The notes beneath the pieces were generated by a model. It did not search any database. It saw only the letters and a list, made by a program, of their open reading frames with translations, and was not told where the DNA came from. The position numbers were made by a program, and so were the translations under genes. Positions 55,949 through 63,395 of a DNA stretch of 64,000 nt are shown here, piece after piece (position 1 is the stretch's first letter; each line of letters starts with the position of its first letter). Origin of the DNA: Paludibacteraceae bacterium (GTDB taxonomy: Bacteria > Bacteroidota > Bacteroidia > Bacteroidales > Paludibacteraceae); the NCBI GenBank assembly GCA_016285885.1, contig JAEERP010000002.1, positions 248,001 through 312,000 of the forward strand. The letters are read 5' to 3'.

Positions 55949-56158
55949 TTATTCCTCCTTCTTGAACAACTCGTCCTCCGGCACGTTGAAGTAATCGCTG
56001 AGGACTTTTTTCGTCAACTCGTCCGGTACAATAGCACCGGATATCCAGGTGCGAACCGTGTTCTCCGACTTCCGGGTGACTTCCGCCACCTCCTTTATGA
56101 AGTTCTGACAAGGCGTCAGCTTCGTTTTCTCCCTGTTGTAAATTTCTTTAAATGTCAT
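55949..56158 (-). CDS. Cro-like helix-turn-helix regulator
   Basis: The 69-residue protein (start at 56158, MTFKEIYNREK; an ATG at 56173 is also possible) has a HTH with 'FIKEVAEVTRKSENTVRTWI' followed by 'PDELTKKVLSDYFNVPEDEL'. It is the first gene of the leftward early operon and is divergent to the CI-like repressor, the classical position of Cro. Confidence 0.82.
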   Translation of the reverse strand: MTFKEIYNREKTKLTPCQNFIKEVAEVTRKSENTVRTWISGAIVPDELTKKVLSDYFNVPEDELFKKEE

Positions 56159-56186
56159 AAAATTTATATGCATTAAAATTTTTTCT

Positions 56187-56194
56187 ACCTTTGC
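56187..56194 (+). promoter_or_regulatory. -7 box of the CI-like repressor promoter
   Basis: TACCTTTG on the plus strand, about 110 bases before the repressor ATG at 56303, in the divergent control region. Confidence 0.5.
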
Positions 56195-56219
56195 CGTCGA
56201 TTTTGGTTTAATTGCCGTA

Positions 56220-56273
56220 ACAATTACAATGGCAAATATAGACTAATAATCTACAATTACAAAATTTTTGTAG
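56220..56273. promoter_or_regulatory. Probable phage operator cluster
   Basis: ACAATTACA occurs twice (about 56220 and 56253). TTGCC/GGCAA half sites lie around the first copy, and CTACAA...TTGTAG (56251-56273) forms an inverted repeat around the second. The second overlaps the -33 box of the leftward promoter, where a repressor could block early transcription. Confidence 0.45.
56233..56262 (-). promoter_or_regulatory. Leftward early promoter of the phage
   Basis: On the minus strand TTG, exactly 19 bases and TATATTTG form a near-perfect Bacteroidota promoter, 75 bases before the Cro-like start. Confidence 0.75.
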
Positions 56274-56302
56274 AGAAATTTTAGACTGCAAATCGAAAAA
56301 AT

Positions 56303-57100
56303 ATGGAAACAACTATCAATCAAAGGTTTACGGAGTACATTAAGAGCCTCGGAATGTCCATCCGGAAGTTCGAGGCCCTCAATGGCTTGTCAAACGGCTA
56401 CGTGAAGAGCGTCACTAGGGGAATCGGAGAAGATAAATTGAGGACTATTAGTCTACAAAACCCGAAACTGAACATAGAGTGGTTGCTGACAGGCAAAGGC
56501 GAAATGCTGAAGGATGACCCGGAAGTCTGCGAAAGCGAAGACGCGGACGATGGTGTTCTGATGCACCGCACGAAGGTCGCCCCGCTGGTGCCTGTAGACA
56601 TCATAAGGAAGCCGAACGTGCGTGTGTGGGACTTTGTGCGCAGGCACCACGAGATCTACGACCGAACCCCGGACCAAATGATGCCGGAATTCGACTTGGC
56701 CTACACGATGTACGGAAACGCCTTATCGCCCATCATCGACAGGGGCGACACGATCTATCTGCAGTGGCAGGAGCTGTCCACGGACTCCATCGTGAATGGG
56801 CACGTGTACTGGCTCGACACGAAGAAGAACGGCATACTCATCAAGAGGGTATATGTCGAGAACGGGAAGCTGCAATGCTATTCGCTAATGGGCAAGCAAC
56901 CGGTGAAGGCCTTCTCCCTCGACGAGCTGTTCGACATCTTCTCCGTCGTGTCCATCCTTAAGAACTCAATACCGAACCTCGACGCCACAAGGGAGAAAGA
57001 AAACCTCCTCGGGGAGGTCATAGAGCAAAACGGGGCGCTAATAGGAGAGCTCTCCGCACACCGTAAACTCGTCGAAAAACTAATCGATAAGAAGCTATGA
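56303..57100 (+). CDS. CI-like phage repressor (HTH plus S24/LexA-like domain)
   Basis: The 265-residue protein has an N-terminal HTH (about 5-65, 'FTEYIKSLGMSIRKFEALNG' and 'IEWLLTGKGEML'). A C-terminal S24 peptidase-like beta domain follows (about 130-215), with 'YTMYGNALSPIIDRGDTIYL' in the place of the catalytic Ser region and Lys in 'GILIKRVYVENG'. In this copy the Ser and Lys needed for self-cleavage appear to be present. A coiled coil ends the chain. It is expected to hold the prophage silent and respond to DNA damage. The next gene overlaps it by four bases. Confidence 0.88.
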   Translation: METTINQRFTEYIKSLGMSIRKFEALNGLSNGYVKSVTRGIGEDKLRTISLQNPKLNIEWLLTGKGEMLKDDPEVCESEDADDGVLMHRTKVAPLVPVDIIRKPNVRVWDFVRRHHEIYDRTPDQMMPEFDLAYTMYGNALSPIIDRGDTIYLQWQELSTDSIVNGHVYWLDTKKNGILIKRVYVENGKLQCYSLMGKQPVKAFSLDELFDIFSVVSILKNSIPNLDATREKENLLGEVIEQNGALIGELSAHRKLVEKLIDKKL

Positions 57101-58329: not shown

Positions 58330-59216
58330 AGTTCGTACCCTTTCTCCCTTAATTCGTGAATAAGCCTCGTGAACGCCTTATCGTAGTAGAGCGGGTGGTA
58401 TCTCCCGCTCACGACAAATAGCTTGTTGCGGCCGAACTTCTTGCCTTCCTCCGTGAGCCTCATGCACTTCATCTCATGCCGTCTATCCTCAGCATTGGCG
58501 TAGGATATCACCTCAAGGTACCCTTCCTTGACCATGAACGCATTGAACTTGGACACCCGGCATCGGATCTTGCGCATCTCAAGCAGATCGCTCGCTCCAC
58601 GCAGCCCGTGCGCCGACCATCGGCTACCCGTATATGCGTCCGGGTCGAGGGGAAGCGCATTCGCGTCGACTGCCACGGGCTTCGCCGCCTCCGCCTCGCC
58701 GTACAGCAGGCGGTTCGCCTTCTCGAGCGCCGCCGTCGATTCCCTGATCGCCTCCTTGATGGCCGCCAGCGTGCCCTTCGCCGCCTTCAGCTCCGCGTCC
58801 TGCCTCCTCATCGTGGCGTCCGCCACCTTCAGCGCCTTCGCCATGATCATCTCCGGCGTGTCGTCGGGCGTAGTCGCAAGATACCCGCCCGTCTTGCGGA
58901 TCTCCTTCAGAATAACCTTCACTCCCTTCTTGAACTGCTTAGCGATAGGCTTGCGGCTCTGCATAAGAACTTCGTAGAGTCCGTCTTCCGTCAGCATCCA
59001 CACGCCATTGCCTCCGGTTCTTCCGCCAATGTAAAGATTGTTTACTTTGACTTTTTCATCGTCATCAACCATGTTGACCATGACATCTGCCTTGCTGTGG
59101 TCTATTACATCTGCGACTTCTTTAGCCAGGAAGAGCGGAGAATCCGCGGTTCCATAGATTGTGAACTGGTGTCCAAGCAGTTCGGATTTTGTAAGGACTT
59201 GTAATGCTTTCTCCAT
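58326..59216 (-). CDS. BRO-family phage antirepressor
   Basis: The 296-residue protein has an N-terminal BRO-N domain (about 15-110: 'FTIYGTADSPLFLAKEVADV', 'WMLTEDGLYEVLMQSRKPIA', 'FKKGVKVILKEIRKTGGY'), a helical linker (about 120-180) and a C-terminal winged-helix-like domain ('YVSK'-type segment at 'KIRCRVSKFNAFMVKEGYL'). Such proteins counter repressors or bind DNA to start the lytic programme. Its start codon is covered by a 13-base sequence complementary to a stretch inside the leader hairpin, so its expression is probably controlled at RNA level. Confidence 0.9.
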   Translation of the reverse strand: MEKALQVLTKSELLGHQFTIYGTADSPLFLAKEVADVIDHSKADVMVNMVDDDEKVKVNNLYIGGRTGGNGVWMLTEDGLYEVLMQSRKPIAKQFKKGVKVILKEIRKTGGYLATTPDDTPEMIMAKALKVADATMRRQDAELKAAKGTLAAIKEAIRESTAALEKANRLLYGEAEAAKPVAVDANALPLDPDAYTGSRWSAHGLRGASDLLEMRKIRCRVSKFNAFMVKEGYLEVISYANAEDRRHEMKCMRLTEEGKKFGRNKLFVVSGRYHPLYYDKAFTRLIHELREKGYEL

Positions 59217-59324
59217 CTTTGAGACTATTTATATTCAGGCAAACAAAAAAAGCGGTTGCCAATACGCTGTCTCAAAGATGGTATTCACTCGTCAGAGCAA
59301 AATAATCTACGTACGGCAACCGCT
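59213..59324 (-). promoter_or_regulatory. BRO leader: attenuator hairpin with anti-start sequence in its loop
   Basis: In the leader RNA, AGCGGTTGCCGTACG (59324-59310) pairs with CGTAT-GGCAACCGCT (59267-59251) and is followed by seven T: an intrinsic terminator just before BRO. Its long loop contains CCATCTTTGAGAC (59281-59269), the exact complement of GTCTCAAAGATGG (59225-59213), which includes the BRO start codon. Terminator and start-codon masking are therefore built into one leader. Confidence 0.7.
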
Positions 59325-59353
59325 ATGCGGTATCTGTGATATGTCAGGGGCAT

Positions 59354-59414
59354 AAAAAAAGCCCACCTGGTGAGCATTAACGCAGCTCCGGCGAATGGAT
59401 AAACCACCAATGAG
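59354..59414 (-). ncRNA. Candidate small phage RNA upstream of BRO
   Basis: On the minus strand a -7 box TATGTTTG (59428-59421) precedes about 60 bases ending in GCTCACCAGGTGGGC and seven T (59375-59354). The transcript would be a short RNA, or the first, mostly terminated, part of the BRO message. No -33 box is clear. Confidence 0.45.
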
Positions 59415-59420
59415 ACACCG

Positions 59421-59428
59421 CAAACATA
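59421..59428 (-). promoter_or_regulatory. -7 box for the BRO leader / small RNA
   Basis: TATGTTTG on the minus strand is the only good -7 match between the BRO start and the lipoprotein gene. It would give a BRO leader of about 200 bases. Confidence 0.45.
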
Positions 59429-59529
59429 ACACTTTTTTTTCATTTGGCATAAAAAAAGTGCGAAAATTTTGGTCTAGGAGCAAAAAAAAGCGTAATTTGC
59501 GGTATGTTTAACTAAATTCTTGTAAAGAT

Positions 59530-59937
59530 ATGAGAAGATTATTGTTTATATTCATTCTAGCATTGATCCCTTGTGTGTTCACGTCCTGCGAGAAGGGCGA
59601 TAGCGAAGAACTCGAACAGGAAGAGACAAGGTACAGCCTTAAGGGTACTACTTGGTATACCAAAGATTCGCCGATGACGATACTTTACAGCAACGCCACG
59701 TACTGGTTTGATTTTGATTCGGAGAATGTGGAGATATGGTATTCGAAGGACTCCGCTGGAACGTACTACAAGACGCATGGAACCTATAAGTACACGGTCA
59801 GCGACAATACATTGCGTATTAAGAACTTCTTCAAGGACGAGGGCATAGACCTCACATTCGAGATCCTGACCAACGGAAATCGGATGAAGAACACAAACGA
59901 GGGATACGAATATTTGAAGGTACTAACGAAGAAGTAA
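59530..59937 (+). CDS. Phage-borne lipoprotein (probable lysogenic cargo gene)
   Basis: The 135-residue protein has a lipoprotein signal ending 'VFTSCEKGD' (Cys near residue 20) and a beta-rich domain with 'KGTTWYTKD', 'YSNATYWFDFD' and 'THGTYKYTVSDNTLRIKN', a layout like small lipocalin-type Bacteroidota lipoproteins. It is transcribed against nearly all neighbouring phage genes, has its own terminator and no link to replication or virion assembly. This suggests a moron expressed from the prophage. Confidence 0.82.
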   Translation: MRRLLFIFILALIPCVFTSCEKGDSEELEQEETRYSLKGTTWYTKDSPMTILYSNATYWFDFDSENVEIWYSKDSAGTYYKTHGTYKYTVSDNTLRIKNFFKDEGIDLTFEILTNGNRMKNTNEGYEYLKVLTKK

Positions 59938-62326: not shown

Positions 62327-63211
62327 TCACGCCGCCGGAGTGGTGGTCGTAGGCGTCAAAGCGGTCGCTATGCGGTCCACGATGTTGTCCGCTACCGCAT
62401 TCGCCCAGATGCTCGGTACCGCCGTCATGCTGTTGTTAGGCAGCGTGATCGTGGATGGCTGGCAGCGCTTGATGGCGTCCACTTCGGAGCGGATGCCCGC
62501 AAGTTGTGCGGTCAACGGGTTCACCGCTTGGGCGATCATCATGCCGATTGCGCTGTTCTGGTTCGCCTGCGAGATCTCACCGGCGAGCCTTGTGTTCTCC
62601 GCCCTGCTTGCGTCGAGCTTGTCTTGCAGGCTTTGAGTCTGCATCTCGGAGAGCTTGCTGAGGATCGCCTGCGTGTTCGCGTTCGCGCCCGCCTGAAGGG
62701 TGTTCGTCTGCCTTTCCGTCGCCAGCTGCTGCTGACAACAGCATTGCTGGAATTGGCTGATAATCGATGCATTGCCCGCTTGGATCGCGTTGATGATCTG
62801 CAGCGCGTTCGTGTTCTGGTTGTTCGCGATGAGGTTCAGCGAGTTCTGCATATTCATCACCGCCGAGTTGACGAGGTTGAAGTCCTGACCGATGGTCGAA
62901 GCCAAGGTCTGAATCGCCGTGCGTTGCGCCTCGCCCTGCGATGTTATCGCGTTCATGATCAGCTCTCGTCCGCTGTCGTTGTTCAACTGGTTGGAGATGA
63001 ATCCCGCTCCGTTGCCGTTGCCGCCGAATCCGCCTCCAAATCCGTTTCCCCCCCAGCCGAACATGCTGGCGATGATAGCGAATCCGAAGAGGTCGACGAG
63101 GCTGCCGCCTCCGTTGCCGAAGAGTCCGCCGTTGTTGCCCCCTAATGGTATCGAGAACGGAATGCCGCCGGCATTCGCTCCCGCGTCTGGAATTTGATAA
63201 ATTTCCGCCAT
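62327..63211 (-). CDS. Gly/Asn/Gln-rich phage protein, probably virion-associated
   Basis: The 294-residue protein starts with a Gly/Asn-rich hydrophobic region (about 15-75, 'FGWGGNGFGGGFGGNGNG') and continues as a long helical part rich in Asn, Gln and Ala with a Cys-Cys-Cys-Gln cluster, then a Thr/Pro/Ala tail. The same kind of protein occurs near structural genes in several Bacteroides phages. Tail, injection or membrane-associated roles are conceivable. Confidence 0.7.
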   Translation of the reverse strand: MAEIYQIPDAGANAGGIPFSIPLGGNNGGLFGNGGGSLVDLFGFAIIASMFGWGGNGFGGGFGGNGNGAGFISNQLNNDSGRELIMNAITSQGEAQRTAIQTLASTIGQDFNLVNSAVMNMQNSLNLIANNQNTNALQIINAIQAGNASIISQFQQCCCQQQLATERQTNTLQAGANANTQAILSKLSEMQTQSLQDKLDASRAENTRLAGEISQANQNSAIGMMIAQAVNPLTAQLAGIRSEVDAIKRCQPSTITLPNNSMTAVPSIWANAVADNIVDRIATALTPTTTTPAA

Positions 63212-63343
63212 TTCTTTAGATGTTTTTGGTTTTTACTTGGTTTTCTTGTCACTTGTACGTACATCGCAAAGGTCGGAAAGGGTGGGGAAGGGCGCAAATA
63301 AAATGGCGGAATGCCGCTGACACGGCTTGTCAGCGCAAAAAAA

Positions 63344-63395
63344 AAGTAGAGGTCCCTATACGTATATGCTCGAATACGTATAGGGACCTCTACTT
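63344..63395 (-). terminator. Long perfect hairpin terminator
   Basis: A 22-bp perfect stem (AAGTAGAGGTCCC...) with an eight-base loop; on the minus strand it is followed by about ten T. It lies 18 bases after the DUF551 gene. The rest of the gap 63212-63343 shows no gene. Confidence 0.85.

Follow-up and report, generated by a model that had tools for sequence, protein, structure and literature searches.

The window analysed here, a stretch of 64,000 nucleotides from a Paludibacteraceae contig, carries a BRO-type antirepressor gene in a phage-like neighbourhood that also holds an exonuclease, an S24-type repressor, a small regulator and an HNH protein. The S24-type repressor (56303-57100, plus strand) and the divergent small regulator (55949-56173, minus strand) lie ∼1 kb past the end of the BRO gene, and together (55949-57100) they are likely to form a lysogeny switch. 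A lipoprotein-like ORF of 135 aa (59530-59937, plus strand) is divergent from the BRO leader and gave no Pfam or PHROG match at E ≤ 0.001. The features of the leader are collected in Table 1.

Table 1. Features of the BRO gene leader, with positions in the window
Feature	Position	Strand	Basis
Promoter-like TATGTTTG	59421..59428	-	Read from sequence; predicted, fits TAnnTTTG
5′ target copy GTCTCATTGGTGG at expected transcript start	59404..59416	-	Duplex with guide −24.5 kcal/mol
Terminator 1: GCTCACCAGGTGGGC, then seven T	59354..59375	-	Sequence; GCTC..GGGC-T run also in aligned leaders
Stem P1 5′ arm: AGCGGTTGCC + GTACG	59310..59324	-	Sequence; compensatory changes in P1 helix
P2-like inner hairpin	59284..59301	-	Predicted fold
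Guide CCATCTTTGAGAC, antisense to BRO start	59269..59281	-	Complementarity; last C opens conserved CAG 59269-59267
Stem P1 3′ arm: CGTAT + bulged T + GGCAACCGCT	59251..59266	-	Sequence; covariation
Seven-T run; stem P1 doubles as terminator 2	59245..59251	-	Sequence
GTTTGCC, can re-pair with stem P1 3′ arm after read-through of the T run	59238..59244	-	By eye; forms in predicted read-through folds
Target GTCTCAAAGATGG over BRO start codon	59213..59225	-	Complementarity, covariation
BRO-type antirepressor, 296 aa	58326..59216	-	Bro-N 51.9 bits; phrog_130 anti-repressor Ant 5.3e-28

The original prediction held that an attenuator stem followed by seven T ends 34 bases before the BRO start, and that 13 bases in its loop (59269-59281) are perfectly complementary to those covering the start codon (59213-59225). 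The stem is present as described and at the correct coordinates. On the minus strand, AGCGGTTGCC (59324-59315) is complementary to GGCAACCGCT (59260-59251), giving a closing stem, named stem P1, which is extended inward by GTACG (59314-59310) paired with CGTAT (59266-59262). The first T of the run (59251-59245) is still within stem P1, whose end lies 34 bases upstream of the ATG (59216-59214). The complement was exact on re-reading, CCATCTTTGAGAC (59281-59269) being the reverse complement of GTCTCAAAGATGG (59225-59213). The broader proposal, a terminator and a possible start-masking element ahead of an antirepressor-type gene, is supported by the Bro-N and PHROG anti-repressor Ant matches. Three further features were found that the prediction did not contain: an upstream terminator (59375-59361), a second copy of the target at the leader 5′ end (59416-59404) and the promoter-like TATGTTTG (59428-59421), which matches TAnnTTTG, the −7 consensus of Bacteroidota.

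A complement of this length had been judged unlikely by chance, and dinucleotide shuffles of the 191-nt leader bear this out, with 13 nt reached in 1/20000 shuffles and at least 11 nt in 15/20000. Among the 259 ORF starts in the window (≥60 aa), the BRO start alone has a 13-nt complement; two have 12 nt and one has 11 nt. Within its own genome the exact 12-mer GTCTCAAAGATG is restricted to the start codon and, in reverse orientation, the guide. The fold of the 85-nt hairpin has z = −5.2 versus shuffles. When 171 nt (59360 to 59190) were folded, the guide was paired with the start region. This last fold, and the fact that guide and target share one transcript, are in keeping with a leader that acts only in cis, as an attenuator plus start-masking hairpin within the BRO mRNA and with no free antisense RNA, which was the model of the original prediction. 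However, the stem-loop enclosing the guide is closed and runs into a terminator, and copies terminated there would be free RNA.

The same hairpin scaffold is conserved in 19 elements (18, and later L101). Among the BRO relatives, L001 (59% identity) was the first in which a similar leader was recognised, with the layout retained but the letters changed; further loci are L013, L014, L015, L027, L096-L098, L064, L076, L093, L044, L046 and the later L101. The discovery route was recorded per element because it bears on independence. Patterns outside the guide gave seven elements, five of them with a matching gene start; RNA models that included the guide columns gave five, all matching; five came from records retrieved by blastn with a query that covered the guide, the 5′ copy and some of the start, all matching; and two, the window and L001, were reached via the BRO gene. 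L101 was discovered only once the rule had been fixed, and it conforms, forming 17 pairs of which 16 are Watson-Crick. Near copies are present: L096b and L097b share guide and target, and L027b and L096a share the guide.

Many candidates were discarded. A loose pattern returned 31 stretches, five with the scaffold (L013, L014, L015, L027 and L016, which is L001's contig) and 26 that were chance by eye; a later pattern returned 44, with five already known, three new ones kept by RNA model (L093, L076, L064) and 36 dropped. A reverse-strand artefact in L001 (model R1, E ≤ 0.001) was removed before model R2 was built, and a match in the window itself (63342-63395, 25.8 bits, RNA model) was a plain terminator without a guide. 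Model R1 matched 3/393 genomes of the window's order and 1/16 of its genus, and R2 matched 4/393 of the order and 1/296 of the phylum (the window's own genome only), counts obtained with strict filters that miss weak matches in large genome sets. The scaffold was not matched in a plasmid collection. It is uncommon and, within this sample, confined to the window's order, which the P. gingivalis hosts suggest to be Bacteroidales.

The scaffold precedes unrelated genes. Bro-N follows it in the window and L001, Rha in L013, L015, L076 and L098, KilA-N with ANT in L093 and a truncated AntA in L044, while the L064 fragment is Rha-like by eye. In L027, L096 and L097 (P. gingivalis prophages and L027) the following gene encodes a short unknown protein, and the following genes of L014, L046 and L101 are unknown. 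Pfam placed seven of ten other following proteins in Bro-N, Rha, KilA-N or AntA, missing L014, L027 and the 29-aa L064 fragment. Those of L014 and L027 matched no family in Pfam and PHROGs, nor did that of L097b in PHROGs; the search covered the following proteins other than those of L046, L096, L097a and L101.

In 17/19 elements the start region of the gene that follows can pair with the guide along an unbroken 10-19 nt, and in all 17 the gene copy overlaps the start codon, as assigned, or sits within 1 nt of it. The guide lies ahead of CAG in 17/18 elements. When all guides were paired against all gene starts (n = 16), cognate duplexes averaged −22.1 kcal/mol and non-cognate ones −10.1 kcal/mol (sd 4.1), and 0/100000 permutations reached the cognate sum. 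The cognate was the top target for 12/16 guides and the top guide for 15/16 targets; for the other four guides it was the second or third target, narrowly behind L097a in the case of L044 and L064b, and in the case of L013 and L098 because their guides are near-identical. Over 15 distinct rows, 89.5% of guide:gene cells pair, falling to 31-43% when the register is shifted by 1-3 positions. Both partners have changed in 61 cells on the gene side (permuted mean 21.8, maximum 44, 0/5000 as high) and in 57 on the 5′-copy side (permuted mean 20.5, 0/5000 as high). Since the elements are related, none of the permutation counts is an independent test. Two of the four measures for the gene copy were unremarkable, with positions changed on both sides equalled in 434/5000 and pair types in 2243/5000 permutations.

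In each of two P. gingivalis prophage records there is a pair of units, and every guide matches the gene of its own unit much better than that of its counterpart: for the L097 units the cognate duplexes are −23.7 and −22.0 kcal/mol and the crossed ones −6.4 and −9.6 kcal/mol. The paired units resemble natural orthogonal guide-target pairs. Two guides lack a matching gene start. The gene after L027 9294-9387 (plus strand) no longer has the start region that its partner retains, and L064a (L064 210-299, minus strand) is the first of two adjoining scaffolds, the second of which matches; both may represent copies in decay or immunity RNAs that act on their own. The L064 210-299 guide pairs with the L093 5′ end at −18.9 kcal/mol. 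A chance inverted repeat beside an ordinary terminator, which the shuffles attaining 11-13 nt in 15/20000 cases would allow for the window, is contradicted by this covariation and by the recurrence of the same arrangement in other letters in 17/19 scaffold members, and can be given practically no weight.

A second target copy, following a TAnnTTTG-like element at the leader 5′ end, is present in 16/18 tested elements (L096b fell outside this test owing to an assembly gap). The motif resembling TAnnTTTG directly precedes the 5′ end of the related leaders, with one mismatch in L044 and L101 (by eye). Guide:5′-end duplexes (n = 17) were −25.0 kcal/mol for cognate and −12.3 kcal/mol for non-cognate pairs, with 0/100000 permutations as low; the L101 copy fits its guide at −24.8 kcal/mol. 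L044 (−10.2) and L064a (−10.9) have 5′ copies that fail to match their own guides, so the 5′ copy is not strictly required. In L044 (1454-1678, minus strand) guide and gene start fit each other and the 5′ copy fits the guide of L015 (−33.8), as if the retuning of guide and target had bypassed the 5′ copy. The idea of a leader peptide that begins in the 5′ copy was given up, as several leaders have no ATG there (by eye).

The predicted folds suggest what the 5′ copy could do. Accessibility was computed for 15 of the 19 elements, leaving aside L027b, both L064 units and L096b, and pairings were forced in 14, leaving aside L101 as well. On average the guide was unpaired with probability 0.57 in the stem-loop alone and 0.09 in the precursor, taken as the whole leader up to terminator 2; with the initial 45 nt swapped for foreign ones the value rose to 0.54 (Wilcoxon p = 0.00012 for own versus foreign). 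L044 departs from this pattern, its guide being unmasked in the precursor (0.69 unpaired). In read-through RNA the start region was more open with its own 5′ end than with foreign ones (0.47 versus 0.32, p = 0.007), the order being reversed in L014 and L046; in the window even its own 5′ end left it only 0.28 open (0.16 with foreign ones). We read this as a precursor that, in the model, hides the guide until the 5′ part is removed. If so, the 5′ target copy may be the release element that the original prediction could not see.

The forced folds bear on the cis-only model. Pairing of 5′ copy and guide was the minimum, or at most 0.5 kcal/mol above it, in 11/14 leaders, the window included (not in L014, L044 and L046). 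Pairing of guide and start in cis came as close in two of the 14 (L046 and L076), and lay 2.5 kcal/mol above the minimum in the window. These are nested folds of ∼220 nt, which are rough and cannot display a pseudoknot of stem P1 with the 5′ copy. The cis-only model suits L046 and L076, but in most leaders the 5′ copy equals or beats the cis start, and c4 of phage P1 is described as trans-acting (PMC8546580). The two silencing layers of the original prediction thus survive in part: a terminator and the potential for start masking are present, while masking in cis within read-through RNA is probably not the main mode, since the 5′ copy competes for the guide and the terminated hairpin is built like a free antisense RNA. 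A leader acting in cis alone we consider unlikely.

The original prediction had named covariation in related leaders as its check, and the outcome was favourable both for guide:start, as above, and for stem P1. Over 16 distinct rows, 5/16 pairs of the P1 helix show changes on both sides, in six cells, and 0/500 shuffles were as high, in an alignment that was fitted to the model and so is biased towards it. The first six sequences alone gave no stem P1 covariation beyond shuffles (239/500). In a MAFFT alignment of 14 leaders, 11/34 predicted pairs had compensatory changes, mostly in the first hairpin and stem P1.

These helices also bear on the possibility that the three copies (direct, inverted, direct) are DNA operators, that is, sites for a repressor protein at the promoter and gene start. 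Phage operators can be hypervariable, as these sites are, and one of the three similar sites lies at the promoter. A count of G-U versus A.C pairs (10 versus 8 for the 5′ copy, 2 versus 8 for the gene) did not favour RNA. Against this, the middle site belongs to the loop of a stem whose arms have changed in a compensatory way, and it precedes CAG in 17/18 elements, the first hairpin covaries too, and the gene copy keeps its place at the start codon, or ≤1 nt from it, in all 17. Moreover, the BRO relatives L004 and L010 score as an Rfam RNA, c4-2. We regard operators as a very improbable explanation.

P1, P7 and P22 offer the best-studied cases of antirepressors under antisense control. In c4, a1b1 is the upstream copy of the target. 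The window RNA resembles c4 of P1/P7 (RF01695) in lying upstream of an antirepressor gene, in its closing stem P1, in being antisense to the translation start of the next gene, in a guide that varies between phages and in the upstream second copy of the target (a1b1 in c4), and c4 has a similar length of about 77-80 nt. Unlike the window RNA, c4 presents its guide in separate loops, a′ and b′ (PMC5320573), on a P1-P2-P3 fold; no such bipartite guide was found in the window, where the guide is one uninterrupted block. The window RNA also differs in missing the Rfam model, in the T run after stem P1 and in its host group. Rfam at gathering threshold gave no match in the window, and the c4 families gave none up to E = 10 in 59150-59560, nor in L001, L002, L013, L014 and L015. 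RNase P cleaves c4 of P1/P7 at the base of stem P1, giving an RNA of ∼77 nt that base-pairs with its target mRNAs (PMC5320573); c4-a1b1 is among the motifs listed in PMC2864571, and a c4 precedent appears in PMC8198154 too. Among the literature matches listed for c4, antirepressors and antisense, judged on title and start of abstract, none had such an RNA in Bacteroidota phages; the sole one with both 'c4 antisense RNA' and 'Bacteroidetes' was the 2010 motif survey (PMC2864571). The sar RNA of P22 is alike in being an antisense RNA, to ant, and blocks translation of an antirepressor (PMC12197685). P22 sar is not known to have a guide-swapping scaffold or an upstream decoy.

A related Rfam family is c4-2 (RF02944), which belongs with c4 to clan CL00128 and is also present in the window's order, in 9/198 genomes at E ≤ 0.001 (7 above the cut-off). 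Its source is reportedly a 2017 paper. As in the window, c4-2 loci have a promoter-like motif, a 5′ copy, a stem-loop and sometimes a gene-start copy. Their 5′ copies were cognate as a set (0/20000 permutations, 10 tested, first rank in 5) and their gene-start copies more weakly so (39/20000, 11 tested, first rank in 3); the promoter choice for L055 is probably wrong and its row was retained. By eye, several c4-2 guides are bipartite, unlike that of the window (e.g. L047, L004), while L010 and L054 are intermediate, with contiguous guides ending in CAG.

Five BRO leaders beyond the R1/R2 family, L004-L006 (from the window's own family), L010 and L011, likewise have guide, 5′ copy and gene-start copy. 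Here guide:5′ end was −26.1 (non-cognate −11.9) and guide:gene start −18.3 (non-cognate −9.2), the cognate ranking first in 5/5 each, figures that are descriptive only because the guides were picked by eye. L004 and L010 reach c4-2 at 53.6 bits each (threshold 41); L006 and L011 gave no c4 family at E ≤ 10, and L005 had no Rfam match at E ≤ 1. On the minus strand, ahead of their BRO genes, L004 and L005 both have c4-like leaders on other scaffolds, and L005 resembles L011 by eye. No such leader was seen by eye in the 350-450 nt inspected in the BRO relatives L003, L007, L008 and L009, and L012 is doubtful.

Judging by these likenesses, the window RNA probably acts like c4 and shares ancestry with it. 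No c4 model reaches it, however, and R2 in turn missed the c4-2 elements in those c4-2 loci on which it was run. We therefore class it as a new c4-type subfamily, marked by its uninterrupted guide and by a closing stem that doubles as terminator; c4-2 is the related family in Rfam.

On the strength of complementarity, covariation, the conserved scaffold and predicted masking, we think it probable that the leader is a c4-like antisense RNA whose guide represses the BRO start and is held by the 5′ copy until this is removed, with immunity as a consequence. Transcription from a promoter at about 59420 would give a leader of about 174 nt, ending at terminator 2. The last ∼80 nt (59324-59245), which match processed c4 in size and layout, would be the antisense RNA, made up of terminator/closing stem, inner hairpin and 13-nt guide. 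Pairing of the guide with the start region of BRO mRNA, presumably in trans, would block translation and keep the prophage quiet. In the unprocessed leader and in read-through mRNA the 5′ target copy would hold the guide, so that fresh transcripts would neither silence themselves nor act in trans. Removal of the 5′ part, as RNase P does for c4 of phage P1, would then free the guide, to go by the predicted folds and the c4 precedent. The outcome would be a delayed, sequence-specific repressor, and immunity against phages that share the target.

The joint alteration of guide and target in related phages suggests, at the level of sequence, an RNA immunity switch that can be reprogrammed. A more far-reaching version, which we hold with rather less than even confidence, is a self-timing reprogrammable immunity module. 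The 5′ decoy would shut the guide in fresh precursor and mRNA, repression would begin only after the decoy is cut, and the module would have been moved among unrelated antirepressors (Bro-N, Rha, KilA-N, AntA) and duplicated, with guide, decoy and target retuned together. If so, a newly arrived phage would gain a time window to make antirepressor, and the mature guides of a resident prophage would silence its own antirepressor along with that of any incoming phage that shares the target. The findings themselves point to a distinct RNA scaffold for antirepressor control in phages of the window's order. Since the guide is one contiguous block, the target, and likely the immunity group, could be read from sequence. 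The 5′ decoy is a concrete proposal for the role of leader copies and predicts which prophages are cross-immune.

Some smaller features were observed. An ORF at 62327-63211 (minus strand) has a start, AAATGGCGGAA, complementary over 11 nt to the upstream TTCCGCCATTT, which may be chance because a promoter-like ACCTTTG sits between both segments. In the scaffold elements, at least five T directly follow stem P1 in 13/18, four T in four and none in L064a (by eye). Past the T run of both terminators, a short stretch can re-pair with the terminator's 3′ arm (59350-59375 and 59238-59260 in the window), as GGGC, T run, ATGCCC and GGCAAC, T run, GTTTGCC, and these stretches vary in step in relatives (by eye). 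A GATATTG motif, possibly a processing signal, recurs just 5′ of stem P1 in L010, L011 and L012 as well as in many members, also where the stem itself is not the same (by eye); at this place the window has GATA alone.
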